From assembly GCF_011455875.1 (NCBI RefSeq), contig NZ_CP015031.1, forward strand, positions 1,593,405 through 1,657,404: a stretch of 64,000 nucleotides of DNA, read 5' to 3'. Within the stretch, counting starts at the first letter, position 1, and each line of letters begins with the position of its first letter. Shown here piece by piece: positions 51,865 through 59,428 of this stretch. The position numbers and the translations under genes are program-made. Below the pieces are notes generated by a model. That model was given only the letters and a program-made list of their open reading frames with translations. It was not told the DNA's origin and ran no database searches. This stretch comes from Basfia succiniciproducens. GTDB lineage: Bacteria > Pseudomonadota > Gammaproteobacteria > Enterobacterales > Pasteurellaceae.

Positions 51865-52482
51865 ATGAAACTTTATTATTTACCCGGCTCTTGCGCCACC
51901 GTGCCTTATGTCGCCCTTGAATGGATTGGCGAACCTTACGAAGCGCAGGCAGTAACTCACGACTATATAAAATCGGCGGAATATCTTGCGTTAAATCCAC
52001 AGGGGCAGGTTCCTTTACTGGTGGACAATGATCTGGTTTTAACACAAAATATCGCTATCTTAACGTATTTAGACAACCTCTTCCCGGAAAAGAAAATCTT
52101 CGGCAGCAAAACCGCCCGGGACAAAGCAAAAGCAATGAAATGGCTGGCATTTTTTAACGGCGATCTGCACAAAGCCTTCGTACCGCTTTTCCGCGTACCG
52201 GCTTATGCGGAAGGCAATGAAGAATTAACCAATGAGATACGCAAAGATGCCGCCGCTAATGTTATCAGAATGCTTTCTATAGCCGACGAATATCTTACCC
52301 GCCACATTCACTTCGGCGAACAGATATCCGTTGCAGACGTATATCTATTCGTTGAATTACGTTGGTGTAAAATGTTAGGGCTGGATCTCAGCCAATTCGC
52401 CAACCTTCATGCATTCTATCAACGCATTGCCGCCGATGTCGGCGTAAAAACCGTGTTGATAAAACAGGGAATTTCGGAATAA
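51865..52482 (+). CDS. gst: Beta-class glutathione S-transferase
   Basis: The 205-residue protein has the N-terminal thioredoxin-like domain MKLYYLPGSCATVPYVALEW with the beta-class cysteine (Cys10) and the cis-proline GQVPLL at about residue 53, followed by the all-helical C-terminal domain. It conjugates or binds glutathione; its substrate is unknown. It starts 14 bp after lysA with AGGAGGAG, so it is likely co-transcribed. Glutathione adducts are the known activators of Kef-type antiporters, and one is encoded 7 kb away, but a functional link is speculative. Confidence 0.88.
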   Translation: MKLYYLPGSCATVPYVALEWIGEPYEAQAVTHDYIKSAEYLALNPQGQVPLLVDNDLVLTQNIAILTYLDNLFPEKKIFGSKTARDKAKAMKWLAFFNGDLHKAFVPLFRVPAYAEGNEELTNEIRKDAAANVIRMLSIADEYLTRHIHFGEQISVADVYLFVELRWCKMLGLDLSQFANLHAFYQRIAADVGVKTVLIKQGISE

Positions 52483-52673: not shown

Positions 52674-52985
52674 TCCGCTATACCCAGCATTGCTGTCTAT
52701 CGTATGAAATGCGAACAGAGGCTGCCAGTCGGCATTGCAGTAGCGCATGGATTTCACGGCTTCGTACTCCGGGCTGGTGTACCACGCGCGGGCTGCCGCC
52801 ATATCGGGGAAGCGCAGGACGACCGAGCCGTCAAAATCCGCCCCTTCAAAGGCTTCGTGCGCTCCATTGGCTACCAAGATTTCGCCGCCGAAAGGGGCAA
52901 GTGTCGGCACGCCCAATTGCAGATAGCGGTCGTAAGCCGCTTGGTCTTTCATTTCGTCCCGAATAAAAACAACATAAGCTGTCAT
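52656..52985 (-). CDS. DUF1330 family protein, with aberrant C-terminus
   Basis: The start at 52985 gives 109 residues beginning MTAYVVFIRDEMKDQAAYDR, with AAGGAA upstream; an ATG 17 codons further up overlaps the RND gene end. The DUF1330 fold (dimeric alpha-beta, as in ABM proteins) is clear in FDGSVVLRFPDMAAARAWYT and SPEYEAVKSMRY (residues about 50-85). The last 20 residues (IDSNAGYSGAAIQR) do not look like the family and may have been added by a deletion that joined this gene to the relic below it. It is the last gene of the efflux operon. Function unknown. Confidence 0.75.
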   Translation of the reverse strand: MTAYVVFIRDEMKDQAAYDRYLQLGVPTLAPFGGEILVANGAHEAFEGADFDGSVVLRFPDMAAARAWYTSPEYEAVKSMRYCNADWQPLFAFHTIDSNAGYSGAAIQR

Positions 52986-53028
52986 ATGATTTTCCTTGTT
53001 TAAACATAAAATAAATGTGTAGAGATGG

Positions 53029-56000
53029 CTACACAACCCTATCTTCTTCCGTAACCGAGGTTAATTTCGCCAATTTCGGGGCAAGGTAATTCCGCATATC
53101 GTCCATCAGCGAATAAACCACAGGTACGAAAACCAAACTCAACAGAGTGGAAGCAGTTAAGCCACAAATCACAGCAATTGCCATAGGAGCTCGGAATGCT
53201 GCACTTGCACCACCGGCAAAAACAGCAGGGATCATACCTGCTACCATAGCAATAGTGGTCATGATAATCGGGCGGACGCGTTCTGCGCCTGATTGAATCA
53301 GCGCGGTGGTGCGTTCCACCCCTTGTTGACGTTTTTCAATCACAAAATCCACCAGCAGAATCGAGTTTTTGGTCACAATCCCCATCAACATCAAAATACC
53401 AATCACCGACGACATATCTAACGCGGCACCATACAACAACAAGCCTAACGCCGCCCCGCCGATAGAAAGCGGAAGTGCGGTCAAGATCGTGAACGGTTGT
53501 AAGAAATCTTTAAACAACAGTATCAGTACCAACAGTACCATTGCCACGCCTGTTGCCATGGCAAAACCGAATTGACTAAACATTTCATCCATATATTCGG
53601 CATCACCGGCAGACGGCACACGCACGCCGTCGGGCAGGTTTTGCATTATCGGTAGTTCGTTGATTTGCGATAAGGCGGTACCGATGGTTTGCCCAACTGC
53701 CAAATCCGCTTCCACTGCAATACGGCGTTCGCGATCAAAGCGTTCCAAACTTGCCGAACCTGCCCCAAACTGAATATCCGCAATTGTGTTTAGGATAACC
53801 GTACCACCGTTACTACTGGCTACACGTAGATGTTGTAATACTTCGGGTTGATTGCGTTCGTTTTCCGACAGCGTTACCCGAATCGGAATTTGTCGGTCTG
53901 GTAAATTGAAACGTGCGGCGTTGCCGTCTGTTGTACCCAAAGTTGCAATTTGTAGTAAATTTCCGACCGCTTGTGAGCTAATACCGGCTTGAGCAGCTTC
54001 GTTTTTTCGCAGTTTGACTTGCAATTCCGGCTTGACTAACGGTGCATTAATTTGCACATTTTCAATGGATTTTATTTCTTGCATTTGTTTTTTTAATTTG
54101 GCAGCTGTTTGATCAAGTTTTACCGGATCGTTACCTGTCAGTAAAATTGACACATCGCGCCCTGCCATTTCATTGCGGAAATTGGTGCGAATATCGGCGA
54201 ATTTAACCAACTCATCACGTAATTTATCTTCAAATTCCTTTTGTGAAACCGATCGTTCCTTGTAAGGTTTGAGCTTAATCAGCACTTCGCCTTTGTTAAT
54301 TTCACTACTCCCTGCGGTGGTAAACACTAGATCTACCTCATTAAACTCACGAATGATACGGTCAAGCTGTTGTAGCATGTCATCGGTTTGCGCTAACGGA
54401 CTGCTTGGTGGCAAGGTAATGTCAATTTGGCTCATCCCCGTATCGCCTTTTGGTACAAAGCCTGTTGGGAGTTGTGGAATTATCATCGCTGACATCAACA
54501 ACAGCCCACCGCCCATTAGCAATGTGGTTTTGCGAAATTGCAGGGCTTTTGCTAAGAGACTCAAATAGCTTTTCTTCAGTCGTCCTACATGTTGCGCAGT
54601 ATGATGTTCGGAAATATGTGGTTTTAGTAAATAAGCAGCCAATAAGGGGATAGCAAGGCGAGCGACCACCAAGGAACTCAACACTGCCGCGGCGACCGTT
54701 GTACCAAACTGCCCGAAATATTGTCCGGTCATACCGTCAATAAAACTCACCGGCAGGAATACGGCAACAATACTGGCGGTAATGGCAACAACAGCCAAAC
54801 CAATAGCATCAGATGCATCCAATGCAGCTTGAAAAGGACGTTTGCCTTGCTGCATATGGGTTTCAATGTTTTCAATCTCGACAATTGCATCATCCACCAA
54901 AATTCCAATCACCAACGTAATCGCCAACAATGAAATACTGTTGAGCGTGTAACCAAGCAATTTCATTATCCAAAAGGCAGGCAAAATGGAAAGCGGTAAG
55001 GCAATCGCCGCCACTAAGGTAGCGCGCCAGTTACGCAAAAACAGCCATACCACCAGTACCGTTAAAGCTGCACCTTCCAGTAATGTGGAAATTGCCACAT
55101 CGTAGTTTTCACGCGTGGTATCTACCGAGTTATGCACTTCAGTTAAGTGAATATCGGGGTAAGTTTCGATTAGCTTTTTCAACGCTTGCTGAATGCCGCT
55201 TTCCACCACCGTATCGCTGGAGCCTTTGGAGCGAAACACTTGGAAACCCAACACTTCACGCCCATTTAAACGGGTTCGGCTACGCATTTCGGCGTGACTG
55301 TCAGTAATGGTAGCAAGTTCCGACAATTTCACTTTGCGGTTATCGCTTAACGCAATCGGTAAATTGGCAAGATCGTCTAAGTTTATTTGGCTACCGATCA
55401 CTCGGACAGATTGTTCCTGATTAAACCATTCCACTCGACCTGCCGGTACATTAGCATTGGTTTGAGCAAGTTGTTGGCTAACCTGTTCGGCGGTAATCTC
55501 CAAAGCATTAAGTTTTGTTGATTGCAACGCCACACGGATTTCACGTTTTTCACCACCCAAGCGTTTCACTTGTTGCACGCCATTAACGGCTAACAATTCA
55601 CGGCTGACCGCATCATCAATAAACCATGCTAGCTCGGTTTGGTTCATATTCAGCGACTGCACCGCATAATAGCCCAGTGCGGCTCCTTCAGTGTCCATTC
55701 GCTCAACAATAGGATTATCAATATTTTGTGGCAAATCGCCACGAATTTGCGTAATCGCATTACGCACATCGTTCACCGCACGGTCGGTATCGGTTTCCAA
55801 ACGGAATTCCACCGAAGTGGTGGACGTACCTTCGGTAATGCTGGAGGTAATATGGCGCACGCCCGCCATACCGGCAACCGCGTCTTCTACGCGGCGGGTA
55901 ACCGAATTTTCCAGTTCGTCGGGCGAAGCCCCCGTTTGCGAAATTGTAATATTAACTGCAGGAAAGCTGATATTCGGGTCGGCGTTAATCGGCAGCGCCT

Positions 56001-56094
56001 GAAACGAACGAATTCCCATTATTGTCAAAAGCAAAAACAGCACAATAATCGGAATCGGATTGCGGATTGCCCAAGCGGAAATTCTGAAATTCAT
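53029..56094 (-). CDS. RND efflux pump, HAE1 (AcrB-like) family
   Basis: The 1021-residue inner-membrane transporter has the full RND plan: TM1 at about 10-30, a periplasmic porter domain, TM2-6 with the proton-relay aspartates in GILVDDAIVEIENIE (about 404-405), a second porter domain, and TM7-12 with the relay lysine in GIVTKNSILLVDF (about 935). This identifies it as a drug/proton antiporter of the HAE1 type. Its ATG overlaps the adaptor stop (TAATG). No outer-membrane TolC-like gene is adjacent, so it must borrow one. An uptake signal lies within the gene near 53472. Confidence 0.92.
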   Translation of the reverse strand: MNFRISAWAIRNPIPIIVLFLLLTIMGIRSFQALPINADPNISFPAVNITISQTGASPDELENSVTRRVEDAVAGMAGVRHITSSITEGTSTTSVEFRLETDTDRAVNDVRNAITQIRGDLPQNIDNPIVERMDTEGAALGYYAVQSLNMNQTELAWFIDDAVSRELLAVNGVQQVKRLGGEKREIRVALQSTKLNALEITAEQVSQQLAQTNANVPAGRVEWFNQEQSVRVIGSQINLDDLANLPIALSDNRKVKLSELATITDSHAEMRSRTRLNGREVLGFQVFRSKGSSDTVVESGIQQALKKLIETYPDIHLTEVHNSVDTTRENYDVAISTLLEGAALTVLVVWLFLRNWRATLVAAIALPLSILPAFWIMKLLGYTLNSISLLAITLVIGILVDDAIVEIENIETHMQQGKRPFQAALDASDAIGLAVVAITASIVAVFLPVSFIDGMTGQYFGQFGTTVAAAVLSSLVVARLAIPLLAAYLLKPHISEHHTAQHVGRLKKSYLSLLAKALQFRKTTLLMGGGLLLMSAMIIPQLPTGFVPKGDTGMSQIDITLPPSSPLAQTDDMLQQLDRIIREFNEVDLVFTTAGSSEINKGEVLIKLKPYKERSVSQKEFEDKLRDELVKFADIRTNFRNEMAGRDVSILLTGNDPVKLDQTAAKLKKQMQEIKSIENVQINAPLVKPELQVKLRKNEAAQAGISSQAVGNLLQIATLGTTDGNAARFNLPDRQIPIRVTLSENERNQPEVLQHLRVASSNGGTVILNTIADIQFGAGSASLERFDRERRIAVEADLAVGQTIGTALSQINELPIMQNLPDGVRVPSAGDAEYMDEMFSQFGFAMATGVAMVLLVLILLFKDFLQPFTILTALPLSIGGAALGLLLYGAALDMSSVIGILMLMGIVTKNSILLVDFVIEKRQQGVERTTALIQSGAERVRPIIMTTIAMVAGMIPAVFAGGASAAFRAPMAIAVICGLTASTLLSLVFVPVVYSLMDDMRNYLAPKLAKLTSVTEEDRVV

Positions 56095-57209
56095 TATTCC
56101 GCTCCCTTCGATAATACTGCTTCCACTTGATCACCTTCATTGATCAATGCGCCTGCTTTTTGCACGACTTGCTCGCCAACTTGCAAACCTGACAAGACTT
56201 CAGCTTGGATTTGGCTCACTTCGCCAAGAGTAATCTTACGGCGAACTACCATACCATCGGCATTTACCACCATAACAAAGTGATTGCCGTCAGCACCAAA
56301 ATTCACTGCGCTGAACGGTACGGCAATTTGTGCCGTCATTTCAGGTAACTGAACGGCAGCATTTATAGGTGTGCCAAATGGCACTTGCAACTTTTCCTGT
56401 AAGGCAATATGAACTTTAGCTGTGTGGGTTGCACTGTCTATTTGGGAAGAAATTAAGCGAATTAGACCGCTTGTAACCTTATCAAGCATTTGCACATTAG
56501 CAACCAAACCTGTTTTCAATACCGAAATCTCGTCAGCACTGGCTCGCACCACGGCTTCCAATACACCATCACGCGCAATATGAAATAAGGCGTTGCTGTC
56601 GGTTAAGTTACCCGCTTGTGCCGAACGTTGCGTAACAATGCCGCTCGTTGGGGCAAGAACTTCCGCTTTTTTACGTTGATGACGACTATCGTCAAGCTGT
56701 GCCTGGACCTGTGCAATTTCAGCTTTTGCCGCCTGTATCGCAGCCCTTGCACTTTCTGCTTTAGCTCGTTGCTGATCTAATTCCTGACGACTGACCGCAT
56801 CCGTTTTTATCAACTGCTGATAGCGTTTAAGCGTTGCTTCCGCCTCTTTTAATGTGGATTGTTGTGATACTAAATTGGCTTTGGCTCGCTGTAGTAAAGC
56901 ATCATTTTGGCGAAATTGCGATTGCACTTGGCTTTGTTCCAAGGTAGCTAAAACTTGTCCTTGCTCCACCCAATCGCCCACTTCTGCTTTCACATCCAAT
57001 ACCTGCAAGCCTTGTAATGGCGTGCCGACAGACACATCATCTTTTGCCTGGATTGAACCGGAGAGCAATAAGCGGTAATTCAGTTGAGTCGGCTGAACTT
57101 GTACCACGTTCACTTTCATGCGTGATGTGGTTTCCGCAACTTCCGTTTGCGCTTCGCCGCAAGCGGTCAAAGCCAGCGCCAATAATAAAATCAAGTATTT
57201 TTTCTTCAT
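56094..57209 (-). CDS. RND membrane fusion (adaptor) lipoprotein
   Basis: The start at 57209 gives 371 residues beginning with a lipoprotein signal MKKKYLILLLALALTACGEA (lipidated Cys17); the much longer open frame upstream overlaps the preceding gene and is rejected. Domains follow the AcrA order: lipoyl half (GTPLQGLQVLDVKAEVGDWV, about 60-79), a coiled-coil hairpin (about 95-185), second lipoyl half (APTSGIVTQRSAQAGNL), beta-barrel and membrane-proximal domains. It bridges the RND pump to an outer-membrane channel. It begins 5 bp after the six-TM gene. Confidence 0.9.
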   Translation of the reverse strand: MKKKYLILLLALALTACGEAQTEVAETTSRMKVNVVQVQPTQLNYRLLLSGSIQAKDDVSVGTPLQGLQVLDVKAEVGDWVEQGQVLATLEQSQVQSQFRQNDALLQRAKANLVSQQSTLKEAEATLKRYQQLIKTDAVSRQELDQQRAKAESARAAIQAAKAEIAQVQAQLDDSRHQRKKAEVLAPTSGIVTQRSAQAGNLTDSNALFHIARDGVLEAVVRASADEISVLKTGLVANVQMLDKVTSGLIRLISSQIDSATHTAKVHIALQEKLQVPFGTPINAAVQLPEMTAQIAVPFSAVNFGADGNHFVMVVNADGMVVRRKITLGEVSQIQAEVLSGLQVGEQVVQKAGALINEGDQVEAVLSKGAE

Positions 57210-57214
57210 AAATC

Positions 57215-58069
57215 CTACACCTCCACCCGCTTGCCAATATCTTTCAAATTGGAAAACTCCTCCAGCAATCGCGGCATATCGTCCAGGCTCATGGCAAATT
57301 GCCATAAGTAGGTAATCACCGCATAAATATGCCCGGCTTTTACGCCTTGGGTGGTGGCGATTTGCACCACGGTGACGCCGAACAGCAGCGCCATCGCCAC
57401 GCCAATCCACAAATAACCCGCCGCTTCACGATTGGAAATGCGGATACGCAGTTTTGCCAGCCAGCCGTAGTGTTTGTTGAGCTGGTAGCCGTTGTTGCGC
57501 TCGATGACGTCCACTTCTTTTTCCAAACGGTTGTTGAGTTTGAGGTAGAGCAAATCATTGGTTTTGGCGTATTTCGGCATTAAAAAGGCGAAGAACGCCA
57601 AAATCGCACAAGCGGTAACCCCTGCCCAGAATTCCAGAATCAGCAACATCAGCGCCGAGCCGATAATCTGAAAAGCGGACATCATCAAAATCGGCAAATG
57701 CTGCTCGAAGAAATCCACAAACTGGCGGGATAGCGCAACGCGTGCGGTAACGGAAGAGGTATCCAAGCCTTTCGCACGCTGGCTTGCCACCACCGGCACG
57801 GCAAGTTCCGCATAAATTCGGGCGAATGCGCGGGTATCCACCGCGCGGCGCATGGCGCCGATACTCCAGATAACCAGCACCAACAATGAATAAGAAAGCG
57901 ATGTCCACACATCGCCGCTCATCATCGCATTAACCGCGAAACTGCCGAATACGGGATAGGTCAAAAATAAAACGTTTTCCGCCGCCACTAAACCAAAAGT
58001 GCCGGCAAGGCGTTTTTTGTTGTTTTTAGCGATGGATTTTAAGTTGCCCAAGGCATTGGATGTCTGCAT
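57215..58069 (-). CDS. Six-transmembrane ABC exporter-like membrane protein without ATPase domain
   Basis: The 284-residue protein is the membrane half of an ABC exporter. Hydrophobic segments lie at about 22-42, 57-72, 130-165 (two) and 225-270 (two), with the cytoplasmic coupling loop DTSSVTARVALSRQFVDFFE. No Walker A, signature or Walker B follows; the frame simply stops at VEV. Stand-alone six-TM proteins of this kind are found next to MarR regulators in some Neisseria and Pasteurellaceae, from memory. Its ATG overlaps the marR stop (shared base 58069). Role unknown; it may modulate or supply substrate to the pump. Confidence 0.75.
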   Translation of the reverse strand: MQTSNALGNLKSIAKNNKKRLAGTFGLVAAENVLFLTYPVFGSFAVNAMMSGDVWTSLSYSLLVLVIWSIGAMRRAVDTRAFARIYAELAVPVVASQRAKGLDTSSVTARVALSRQFVDFFEQHLPILMMSAFQIIGSALMLLILEFWAGVTACAILAFFAFLMPKYAKTNDLLYLKLNNRLEKEVDVIERNNGYQLNKHYGWLAKLRIRISNREAAGYLWIGVAMALLFGVTVVQIATTQGVKAGHIYAVITYLWQFAMSLDDMPRLLEEFSNLKDIGKRVEV

Positions 58070-58506
58070 TATTCCACCCCTAAATTTTTGCTTAAGACTT
58101 TGTTTAAGCGGATTAAATCCTGCACCAAGGTCGCCAGTTTTTCTTCGCCGAATTCGACCGCACTTTGTTGCTCCGCCGCCGTTTGCGCTTCAATAATCGG
58201 CGCAATCACGGCAAAACCGTCTGCGGTCAAATTCATCAACTTACCGCGCTTGTCATTCGGGTCGGGCACAAACGCCAACCAGCCGCGTTCAACAAGCTGT
58301 TTGCACACAAACGACACCGTCTGCTTCGGCAATTCCCAATCCGCCACAATGTCTTTCTGCGAACAGCCCTGATGGTGATAAACGGAATACAGCACGACAT
58401 ATTCGTTCTCCGCCAAGCCCATTTTTCTTGCGTACTTCATGTAAATCTGAAGCGACTGCATCATGGTTTCGGCTAATAAATCAATGGAAGTGATATGGTT
58501 TTGCAT
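58069..58506 (-). CDS. MarR-family transcriptional regulator
   Basis: The 145-residue protein has the MarR winged helix. The recognition-helix region is ELPKQTVSFVCKQLVERGWL (about residues 58-77), the wing is FVPDPNDKRGKLMNLTADGF (about 79-98), and helices at both ends form the dimer. It is the first gene of the efflux operon and is expected to repress it. Two near-identical inverted repeats overlap the promoter just upstream (58515-58531 and 58549-58565). A uptake signal is embedded in the coding region near 58158. Confidence 0.92.
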   Translation of the reverse strand: MQNHITSIDLLAETMMQSLQIYMKYARKMGLAENEYVVLYSVYHHQGCSQKDIVADWELPKQTVSFVCKQLVERGWLAFVPDPNDKRGKLMNLTADGFAVIAPIIEAQTAAEQQSAVEFGEEKLATLVQDLIRLNKVLSKNLGVE

Positions 58507-58514
58507 GGTATTAA

Positions 58515-58531
58515 GGTCTAATATTGGACTA
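58515..58531. promoter_or_regulatory. MarR-type operator, copy 1 (promoter-distal, near marR start)
   Basis: GGTCTAATATTGGACTA, an imperfect inverted repeat GTC-N8-GAC, located between the promoter and the marR start. It is the same as copy 2 except for a few bases. Confidence 0.7.
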
Positions 58532-58543
58532 AATGAAAGCGGT

Positions 58544-58571
58544 ATTTTAGTCTAATTTTGGACTTTGTCAA
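58544..58571 (-). promoter_or_regulatory. marR-efflux operon promoter with embedded operator copy 2
   Basis: TTGACA (58566-58571, minus strand) and TAAAAT (58544-58549) are 16 bp apart, a near-consensus promoter. The spacer contains AGTCTAATTTTGGACTT (58549-58565), the second copy of the inverted repeat, so binding there would block RNA polymerase. The two copies are 34 bp apart, about three helical turns. Confidence 0.75.
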
Positions 58572-58588
58572 TCGTGGGGGTATAAAAA

Positions 58589-58618
58589 TGCCTGTCTGAA
58601 AGTGGTTTCAGACAGGCA
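58589..58618 (-). terminator. Terminator made of two inverted Neisseriaceae-type uptake sequences
   Basis: TGCCTGTCTGAAA and its exact complement form a perfect 13-bp stem with loop GTGG, followed on the minus strand by TTTTTA-type sequence. It ends the quinone oxidoreductase relic. The 12-mer TGCCTGTCTGAA equals the TG-wadDUS dialect of Neisseriaceae as I recall it and is unrelated to the Pasteurellaceae signal used elsewhere here. Confidence 0.8.
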
Positions 58619-58632
58619 ATATCTCTTTTCCT

Positions 58633-58761
58633 TTACAGCCTTACCAAAATCTTGCCAATTTGGGCATTGCTTTCCATATAACGATGGGCGCCGGCAATGT
58701 CATCAAAAGCAAAAACCTTGTCAATTTCAGGTTGTAGCTGATCGCTTGGCGTATTACTCAC
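58633..58761 (-). pseudogene. C-terminal relic of a zinc-type alcohol dehydrogenase / quinone oxidoreductase
   Basis: On the minus strand the frame ending in TAA at 58633-58635 reads QLQPEIDKVFAFDDIAGAHR followed by YMESNAQIGKILVRL. This is the unmistakable end of medium-chain NAD(P)H:quinone oxidoreductases. Only about 40 codons remain and there is no start. Just upstream is the palindrome TACTCAC-GA-GTGAGTA (58755-58770), which could be the former operator of the gene, so an internal deletion may have joined the control region to the gene end. Confidence 0.75.
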
Positions 58762-58786
58762 GAGTGAGTATTATGAAAAAATCTGT

Positions 58787-58978
58787 TTATTTTTTCACTT
58801 CGATCGGCGTATATTCCACGGGAATCCAAGAATAGCCGCCTTTTTCTTCAGCACGGATATGACTGATACCGGGGAATGGTAAGTGATCACCAGCGATCCA
58901 AGTTTTATTTTTTGTTAATTCAGGTAATAAACGAAGACGTGCTTCTCTCGCCCCCTGCGCATTAACATCAAATGAAAA
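58787..58978 (-). pseudogene. C-terminal relic of a metallo-beta-lactamase-fold hydrolase
   Basis: The minus-strand frame ending at TAA 58787-58789 encodes SFDVNAQGAREARLRLLPEL, then TWIAGDHLPFPGISHIRAEE and WIPVEYTPIEVKK. This matches the last third of MBL-fold hydrolases (the HLPFPG histidine region). The upstream part is replaced by the uptake-signal dyad that terminates doxX. No start codon is present. I regard it as the stub of a deleted gene. Confidence 0.7.
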
Positions 58979-59015
58979 AGTGCGGTAAAAATCCTTAAAT
59001 TTTTACCGCACTTTT
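58976..59015 (-). terminator. doxX terminator from paired uptake signals
   Basis: AAAAGTGCGGTAAAAAT and ATTTTTACCGCACTTTT form a perfect 17-bp stem with a 6-nt loop, 8 bp after doxX, followed by T on the minus strand. It abuts the hydrolase relic. Confidence 0.88.
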
Positions 59016-59023
59016 AGTCTTAG

Positions 59024-59428
59024 TTATTTATTGAATTTTGCGTCAAGGGAAATTCTGCCTGCGCCTGTAATCATCAGAATTAAATAAGTCATGGAGTAAA
59101 GCACCGCTAATTCGCCTTGGTTTTCAACCGGGTTGAATAAGGTTTCGGCGCTTGCGTGGAACATGAAGTATGCCACCGCCATTTGACCCGCCAGGATAAA
59201 TGCGGTAAAGCGGGTGAACAAGCCCAGGATGATGAAGATTCCGCCCAGGGTTTCGATGATGCCGCCTACGCCCATTAATGATGTGAGCTCAACGCCGCCG
59301 GTTAATTTTTGTAAACCGTGTAATAAGAACATATAGCCGATGATGACACGGGTCAGTAATAAAATTACCGGGCTAAGGTTTGTCGCCAGAGTTTTGATTA
59401 AGTTGTCTAATTTGTAGATTGGATTCAT
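59024..59428 (-). CDS. DoxX-family membrane protein
   Basis: The 134-residue, four-segment membrane protein has the DoxX pattern: LLTRVIIGYMFLLHGLQKLT (about 26-45), GGIIETLGGIFIILGLFTRF (about 55-74), a third segment with MAVAYFMFH and a fourth near LYSMTYLILMITGAGRISLD. Members are linked to redox or thiol stress and respiration in various bacteria, but no single activity is established. Its upstream region duplicates the pirin/lysR control region, so it is probably a target of the LysR regulator at 62347. Confidence 0.85.
   Translation of the reverse strand: MNPIYKLDNLIKTLATNLSPVILLLTRVIIGYMFLLHGLQKLTGGVELTSLMGVGGIIETLGGIFIILGLFTRFTAFILAGQMAVAYFMFHASAETLFNPVENQGELAVLYSMTYLILMITGAGRISLDAKFNK

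Follow-up and report, generated by a model that had tools for sequence, protein, structure and literature searches.

The window analysed here, the whole stretch of 64,000 nt, carries the remains of two genes on the minus strand, then a hairpin, and then genes for a MarR-family regulator, an ABC_membrane_3 protein and an RND efflux adaptor and permease (Table 1); the true start of the adaptor is probably near 57209. The ORF at 58633-58761 (-) is the C-terminus of a zinc-binding dehydrogenase or quinone oxidoreductase (QOR; Pfam PF13602, E 8.6e-9). It also matches TIGR02824 quinone_pig3 (E 6e-7) at 28.8 bits versus a cut-off of 296.8, a score that stays low because just the tail of the gene remains. 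The QOR gene is dead. A sequence-only reading of this DNA had named the QOR and its decay correctly; it gave the stub 40 codons, where homology covers 38 codons plus the stop, and it missed the hydrolase stub. The hydrolase, presumably of the MBL fold, gave no match when its short stub was searched against Pfam. In G004, from another Pasteurellaceae genus, hydrolase and QOR are long and open, in the same order, and are followed by a degenerate hairpin of AT-DUS, a dialect of the Neisseriaceae uptake sequence (DUS); in G006 and G008 all that remains of QOR is an open tail of 45 and 55 codons, followed by a DUS-like hairpin. By eye, CAAGCGGTCA occurs twice in G004, between hydrolase and QOR and within QOR, and the loss in the window therefore fits a deletion between short direct repeats. 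The palindrome at 58755-58770 reads TGCTCACCTGTGAGCA in G004, altered on both sides, as an operator or small hairpin would be.

Table 1. Features around the hairpin (window coordinates; other coordinates as labelled).
Feature	Position	Strand	Basis or remark
DUF1330 5' fragment	52743..53001	-	94.6% identical to complete copy L006 6934-7192
RND efflux adaptor + permease	53029..57410	-	adaptor ORF 56094-57410, permease 53029-56094
ABC_membrane_3 protein, 284 aa	57215..58069	-	ORF + Pfam
Duplicated 1,387-bp segment	57216..58602	-	other copy G000:C1:1689463-1690849 (L006 5464-6850)
MarR-family regulator	58069..58506	-	ORF + Pfam
Promoter-like TTGACA-16-TAAAAT of MarR gene	58544..58571	-	just behind hairpin; promoter scan
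TG-wadDUS inverted pair	58589..58618	.	TGCCTGTCTGAAA-GTGG-TTTCAGACAGGCA, predicted intrinsic terminator
QOR dead stub, C-terminal 38 codons + stop	58633..58748	-	homology to full-length genes; ORF runs 58633-58761
Deletion junction CAAGCGATCA	58739..58748	-	by eye vs G004
Palindrome TACTCACTCGTGAGTA behind hydrolase stub	58755..58770	.	by eye
Hydrolase C-terminal stub, ~63 aa	58787..58973	-	comparison with relatives; precedes QOR in G004
Native USS hairpin, inverted AAGTGCGGT pair	58976..59015	.	terminator scan + fold

The hairpin at 58589-58618 is a perfect 13-bp stem behind the QOR end, as the sequence-only reading had described it, with a loop of four bases, GTGG. The 12-mer TGCCTGTCTGAA is present exactly at 58589-58600 (+) and inverted at 58607-58618 (-), and one extra A-T pair lengthens the stem. 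With at most one mismatch the 12-mer was observed twice in the window against 0.19 expected, and 0 of 100 shuffles reached two. For hairpin plus flanks the minus strand folds at -25.7 kcal/mol (z -4.56) and the plus strand at -21.8 kcal/mol (z -5.48), with 0 of 200 shuffles as good on either. The terminator scan called the hairpin on both strands, with the minus-strand T-run TTTTTATA (TTTTTA), and found 4 terminator-like sites versus 0.9 expected in the 801 bases scanned around it; promoter-like sites in the region number 3 versus 2.3 expected. With its T-run and its place behind a gene end, the hairpin is built like a functional intrinsic terminator of the TG-wadDUS type, and from its anatomy it would terminate minus-strand transcripts and so shield the MarR promoter. 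The rest of the window uses the Pasteurellaceae signal (USS), as had also been claimed: AAGTGCGGT occurs 35 times against 0.51 expected, and the native USS hairpin next to the hydrolase stub is probably the terminator of the DoxX-like gene at 59024-59428. An Rfam search of the window returned just Alpha_RBS, away from the hairpin, and no tRNA genes were found in the window.

We take TGCCTGTCTGAA to be TG-wadDUS; a genome scan matched these letters to Neisseria wadsworthii records. Names given to hairpins below, such as AG-kingDUS, use dialect letters that go beyond the statements of PMC3630211 and are presumptive to that extent. In the accessible parts of PMC3630211, wadDUS is AT-DUS with a T insertion, N. 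wadsworthii holds 2,426 wadDUS and the dialect of N. shayeganii is eikDUS. The sequence-only reading had assigned the 12-mer to N. wadsworthii and N. shayeganii; the former assignment stands, and the latter species is ruled out as a source by its eikDUS dialect, as given in those parts of PMC3630211.

G000, the host genome, is one contig of 2,253,194 bp and contains five exact wadDUS 12-mers, all between 1651993 and 1691283 (~39 kb): two in the window hairpin, two in a second pair at 1689443-1689476 and a single one at 1691272-1691283. The second hairpin and the single site lie 37-39 kb from the window hairpin. A 12-mer common across this genome would have spoken against the sequence-only reading; with five exact copies in 2.25 Mb it is rare. 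By comparison, 819 copies occur in 938 kb of Neisseria loci that use wadDUS and were picked for holding pairs. Since wadDUS is not over-represented in G000, it is foreign there and not the host's own DUS. Across 140 Pasteurellaceae genomes the exact 12-mer was found in 15, including G000 (26 matches in all); as a control, the reversed pattern matched 2 times, both in 1 genome. Single copies say little by themselves, because about 0.27 exact 12-mers are expected per genome at equal base frequencies. The inverted pair (11-mer arms, 0-20 apart) was found in only one of the 140, G000, and there twice. Among named genomes, at least 120 stretches hold a wadDUS pair, and all 120 of the matches listed are Neisseria, from four genomes (N. 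wadsworthii 9715, Neisseria sp. 83E34 and the MAGs S28M_Sa_33 and S18M_Sa_17). The 938 kb hold 240 pairs, 195 of them with the same extra A-T and hence 13-bp stems, and a T-run on at least one side accompanies 188 of the 240. Neither the loop GTGG nor the loop of the second hairpin is among the 240 sampled wadDUS loops of Neisseria, and no wadDUS pairs were found in viral contigs. The Neisserial origin of the window hairpin is well supported. It shares its 12-mer, inverted pair, short loop, T-run and place behind a stop codon with the TG-wadDUS terminators of Neisseriaceae, as far as these are described in the accessible parts of PMC3630211, but it lies in a Pasteurellaceae genome with Hin-type USS and five exact copies.

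The foreign dialect is confined to a local cluster, with wadDUS and AT-DUS pairs counted genome-wide and other dialects in 137.6 kb (1593405 to 1730999). Strong hairpins (stem 10 or more, loop 3-12) number 24 in these 137.6 kb. Four of them contain a DUS core, and all four fall within 58.6-96.1 kb of the extended stretch: two wadDUS pairs, a kingDUS pair and a hairpin with arms ending CTGCCTGAA (78876-78914 of the extended stretch). The AG-kingDUS pair (Kingella dialect) is exact, at G000:C1:1686901-1686933 (L006 2902-2934), 2.5 kb from the second wadDUS hairpin, and follows a gene that by eye is NAD(P)H-dehydrogenase-like; a search of the window for kingDUS found none. A one-mismatch search for wadDUS added no sites in the 137.6 kb, and the six two-mismatch sites there are not above permuted controls (mean 8.1). 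One-mismatch AT-DUS sites number nine in the 137.6 kb, and G000 has no AT-DUS inverted pair genome-wide. Each wadDUS of G000 stands at a join of gene groups: QOR/MarR, LysR#1/MarR, and the stop of LysR#2 beside DUF1330. The comparison with sister strains that had been proposed could be made with one congeneric genome, G030, which is without the 6-kb locus: synteny ends past the GST gene, near 52482, and window positions 52700-58770 had no match except short USS-hairpin repeats elsewhere (2 candidates scored in one search, 40 in another). These several foreign signals suggest that the 40-kb stretch passed through Neisseria-like bacteria.

The two wadDUS hairpins are linked by the 1,387-bp duplicate, whose copies differ by 1 mismatch (99.93% identity) and are inverted relative to each other. 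The edge of the duplicate falls inside the window hairpin, and both loci have the 3' arm and the MarR promoter in common; they differ in the loop, the flank of the 5' arm and the preceding gene (QOR in the window, LysR#1 at the second hairpin). Since the 3' arm is in the duplicated segment, part of the window hairpin may come from the other locus. Another repeat, the 259-bp DUF1330 fragment at 52743-53001, has diverged further (94.6%). At third codon positions the G+C of MarR-ABC is 0.60-0.65 versus 0.46-0.51 in three neighbouring genes. In G002 the LysR#1 gene is convergent with QOR, and a simple inversion between the two hairpins was rejected: alone it does not put QOR beside LysR#1 as in that genome.

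The family affinity of the attached genes was then compared. Over 116 nt the QOR stub matches its best Pasteurellaceae relative, G008, at 97/116 and the Neisseriaceae G145 and G163 at 95/116, so it is about equally close to both families and does not decide the donor alone. A search of 83 genomes of the N. wadsworthii family gave 6 matches to the stub, two of them at 84%, and it was not found among the best 10 candidates at most per genome in the four known wadDUS genomes. The hydrolase stub with the palindrome (58754-58973), queried in four Pasteurellaceae genomes (G030, G004, G002, G007), is 85% identical to G004 and 83% to G007, and the QOR part 80% and 78%. In 83 Neisseriaceae genomes the hydrolase stub gave 3 matches (74% over 98 nt, and two of ~30 nt), and it was not found among the best 9 candidates per genome in the four sampled wadDUS genomes, whose best MarR-ABC match is 69% nt. 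Such searches score the best few candidates per genome (9-40; 2-3 in some), so that absence is not proof. The ABC protein is 82.6% identical (aa) to Pasteurellaceae G019 versus at most 61.8% in the fetched Neisseriaceae rows, and in a tree of 30 rows the 13 members of its starred group include 10 Pasteurellaceae and 2 Neisseriaceae. LysR#1, whose 3' end is at the second hairpin, is 72.4% identical to Pasteurellaceae G002 (support 100/100 in a 23-row tree) and at most 51.5% to the Neisseriaceae rows fetched. The rows of both trees are fetched loci, the best DNA matches, with L154, L298 and L310 left out as too short, and both trees mix the families, with at least 3 label changes. MarR is 65% identical to G004 versus 47% to Neisseriaceae G142, and a protein search for the MarR gene in the named genomes found nothing. 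LysR#2, with the single wadDUS at its end, is 70.6% identical to Pasteurellaceae G048 versus 51.0% to the best Neisseriaceae row among the loci compared; DUF1330, at 92.7% identity to P_G048 and 89.6% to N_G222, does not discriminate between the families. Because the hydrolase stub, ABC, LysR#1, MarR and LysR#2 are nearer Pasteurellaceae, the genes do not look Neisserial by plain descent, and their sequences point to mixed or Pasteurellaceae affinity. The proposal that the segment itself, gene plus donor terminator, was Neisserial is not supported by the stub, about equally close to both families, or by the hydrolase. Homologues of several mosaic genes (DUF1330, LysR#2, AraC-like; in G048 also RND) occur on G048 contig 55 and G049 contig 3 (L337-L340), and these clusters suggest a circulating gene set.

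The QOR stub has matches at 22 places (16 Pasteurellaceae, 6 Neisseriaceae), of which 20 were read, with G044 and G172 left out. At the 15 Pasteurellaceae QOR loci, the next feature is an exact AT-DUS pair in 7 (G057, G108, G094, G019, G046, G090, G007), a degenerate AT-DUS pair in 4 (G004, G006, G007, G008) and a Pasteurellaceae-type or other terminator in 4 (G002, G031, G093, G090b); the exact AT-DUS form is also present at 2 of 5 Neisseriaceae loci (G145 and G163). The sequence-only reading had counted against itself stub relatives that are confined to Pasteurellaceae and carry the same hairpin, and this is half the case: relatives occur in both families, and 11 of the 15 loci have a hairpin of another dialect. 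Over the last 600 nt of QOR, Neisseriaceae G163 and Pasteurellaceae G090 are 99.5% identical, and Neisseriaceae G206, which has a non-DUS terminator, and Pasteurellaceae G090b are 96.5% identical; 5 of 7 inner branches of the QOR tree are open. The QOR + AT-DUS cassette is 99.9% identical on the Pasteurella multocida plasmid record CP084164.1 and 99.5-99.8% identical among three genomes (two Pasteurellaceae genera, one Neisseriaceae). Near-identical QOR genes with AT-DUS terminators in both families, plus the plasmid copy, support a gene pool that would cross the family border, terminators included. The cassette (L167-L172, L174, L180, L181; CP084164.1) was seen in seven Pasteurellaceae and two Neisseriaceae genomes, and several copies adjoin two genes that were named by eye, one for a MerR-like regulator and one cation-efflux-like. 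DUS hairpins also lie ~100 bp upstream of the MarR homologues of Neisseriaceae G142 and G172, and there are none in Pasteurellaceae G004 and G001. AT-DUS inverted pairs were found in 35 of 140 Pasteurellaceae genomes, from 15 of 43 genera; one genome, G044 (L350, L351), has 16 of them, mostly clustered.

The explanation that we favour, and consider fairly probable, is that the locus is a mosaic of shuttling genes that was last stamped in an unsampled wadDUS host and decayed in place. The oxidoreductase, LysR and efflux genes would belong to a pool exchanged both ways between the families, terminators would record the dialect of the last Neisseriaceae host, here an unsampled wadDUS species, and the wadDUS terminator would have been carried into a Pasteurellaceae chromosome as part of the gene mosaic; transformation is a plausible route of entry for a genome that bears USS. 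After arrival, ~290 codons would have been removed from the start of QOR, probably through a deletion between two 10-bp repeats, and the preceding hydrolase would have been shortened at its 5' end as well. The hairpin would have stayed between the dead genes and the MarR-ABC-RND promoter, where it would stop upstream transcripts. An unseen intermediate host with wadDUS is required, because several attached genes are nearer Pasteurellaceae and neither QOR nor hydrolase was found in the sampled wadDUS genomes. Against this explanation, the 9-40 best candidates scored per genome showed QOR and hydrolase in none of these four genomes, and MarR-ABC reaches 69% nt there. The Pasteurellaceae affinity of ABC, LysR#1 and LysR#2, the loop GTGG, which no sampled wadDUS pair of Neisseria has, and the position of the 3' arm in the duplicated segment also count against it.

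In another reading, transformation brought in a tract of Neisseriaceae DNA that held the gene together with its terminator and then decayed, and the genes would be Neisserial by descent. The wadDUS hairpin, the QOR homologues at 84% in two Neisseriaceae, the third-position G+C of MarR-ABC above three neighbouring genes, and the DUS hairpins upstream of MarR in G142 and G172 and not in G004 and G001 all agree with this; yet the hydrolase stub (83-85% nt), ABC (82.6% aa) and LysR#1 (72.4% aa) are closest to Pasteurellaceae, MarR is nearer G004 than G142, and the QOR stub is nearly tied, which makes such a tract quite unlikely. In a local graft, QOR would at first have had a different terminator; MarR-ABC and the 3' arm of wadDUS would have arrived when the locus recombined with the second hairpin or was converted by it, and the 5' arm would have been perfected as the quasi-palindrome allowed a template switch. 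Such a graft is suggested by the 99.93% identity over 1,387 bp that begins inside the hairpin and by the AT-DUS-like hairpins of relatives at the same place behind QOR. The flank of the 5' arm and the loop are however unlike those of the second hairpin, so the 5' arm was not simply copied, and an extra correction step is needed; we regard this route as unlikely. Rather doubtful, and compatible with the favoured mosaic, is a plasmid or conjugative element as the carrier, with the DUS hairpin as passenger or integration site. The near-identical cassette on CP084164.1 and in three genomes fits such a carrier, and an integrase preference for DUS was proposed for an ICE (PMC7371117, accessible parts); but the cassette on CP084164.1 has AT-DUS and not wadDUS, PLSDB predicts that plasmid to be non-mobilizable, and viral contigs are without the wadDUS pair. 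A chance or convergent terminator with no Neisseria link could draw on the fact that Pasteurellaceae too use uptake sequences as terminators and on isolated TGCCTGTCTGAA in 14 other genomes of the 140. It is contradicted by the clustering of dialect-exact sites, since 40 kb hold two perfect pairs, one isolated copy and the kingDUS pair, with wadDUS pairs in 0 of 139 other Pasteurellaceae genomes, and is extremely improbable.

A separate observation concerns the Pasteurellaceae genus g10, in which 3 of 4 genomes have islands with 4-12 DUS cores and 6-11 USS per 10 kb (L272, L273, L336 and L342 on G035 contig 13, 24-100 kb; L275 and L349 in G037; L274 in G034). The DUS hairpins of these islands hold a Pasteurellaceae USS as loop or inner stem. 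With arms up to 40 apart, a USS lies between the DUS arms in 18 of 24 pairs of G035, 8 of 10 of G037 and 2 of 3 of G034 in the stretches read. The corresponding counts are 0 of 8 in two G044 stretches and 0 of 240 for wadDUS pairs of Neisseria, whose arms are at most 16 apart and give a USS less space. The density of DUS cores is 0-1 per 10 kb in seven further stretches of the island genomes, six from the same contigs, and hybrid hairpins were not found in viral contigs. Hybrid DUS/USS hairpins are not described in the accessible parts of PMC1626085, PMC1852404, PMC3630211, PMC13020248 and PMC5635059. The window hairpin has the tip GAAAGTGGTTTC, where G034 has GAAAGTGCGGTTTC, and may be related to the hybrid as a wadDUS version minus two bases, a resemblance noted post hoc. 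It is possible, if doubtful, that terminator hairpins are exchangeable passports for a pool common to both families, rewritten in the local dialect and with arms that serve as recombination seams, the g10 islands being bilingual. If so, DNA with the g10 hybrid hairpins would carry the address of either family.

Uptake sequences are thought to help separate the DNA of Neisseriaceae and Pasteurellaceae, and Kroll 1998 reportedly described Haemophilus-Neisseria gene exchange flagged by foreign uptake sequences. The general kind of finding is already known. Likewise, uptake sequences of the other family border transferred genes in the lav/autB exchange between Haemophilus and Neisseria (PMC5635059, accessible parts). 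The autB transfer in that account ran from Haemophilus to Neisseria, whereas here a Neisserial tag of a minor dialect is found in Pasteurellaceae, with genes of mixed affinity and a second dialect beside it. The dialect serves as a donor label, as it does for the 'peregrine' DUS by which foreign DNA is found in Neisseriaceae (PMC3630211 and PMC7371117, accessible parts); that use stays within Neisseriaceae, and here the label is applied across the family border. Natural competence, the route named in the sequence-only reading, is a plausible one; the accessible parts of PMC3630211 call N. meningitidis-H. influenzae exchange rare. Literature searches found neither the wadDUS 12-mer as text nor titles on wadDUS in Pasteurellaceae. 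The AT-DUS pairs in a quarter of the Pasteurellaceae genomes (35/140) suggest that the uptake barrier leaks broadly, and here a minor Neisserial dialect stands beside a Kingella-type one, both in a Pasteurellaceae chromosome. With the hybrid DUS/USS hairpins it can be tested directly whether the two uptake systems read one and the same DNA, and dialect-typed terminators let one guess the host that a gene passed through.
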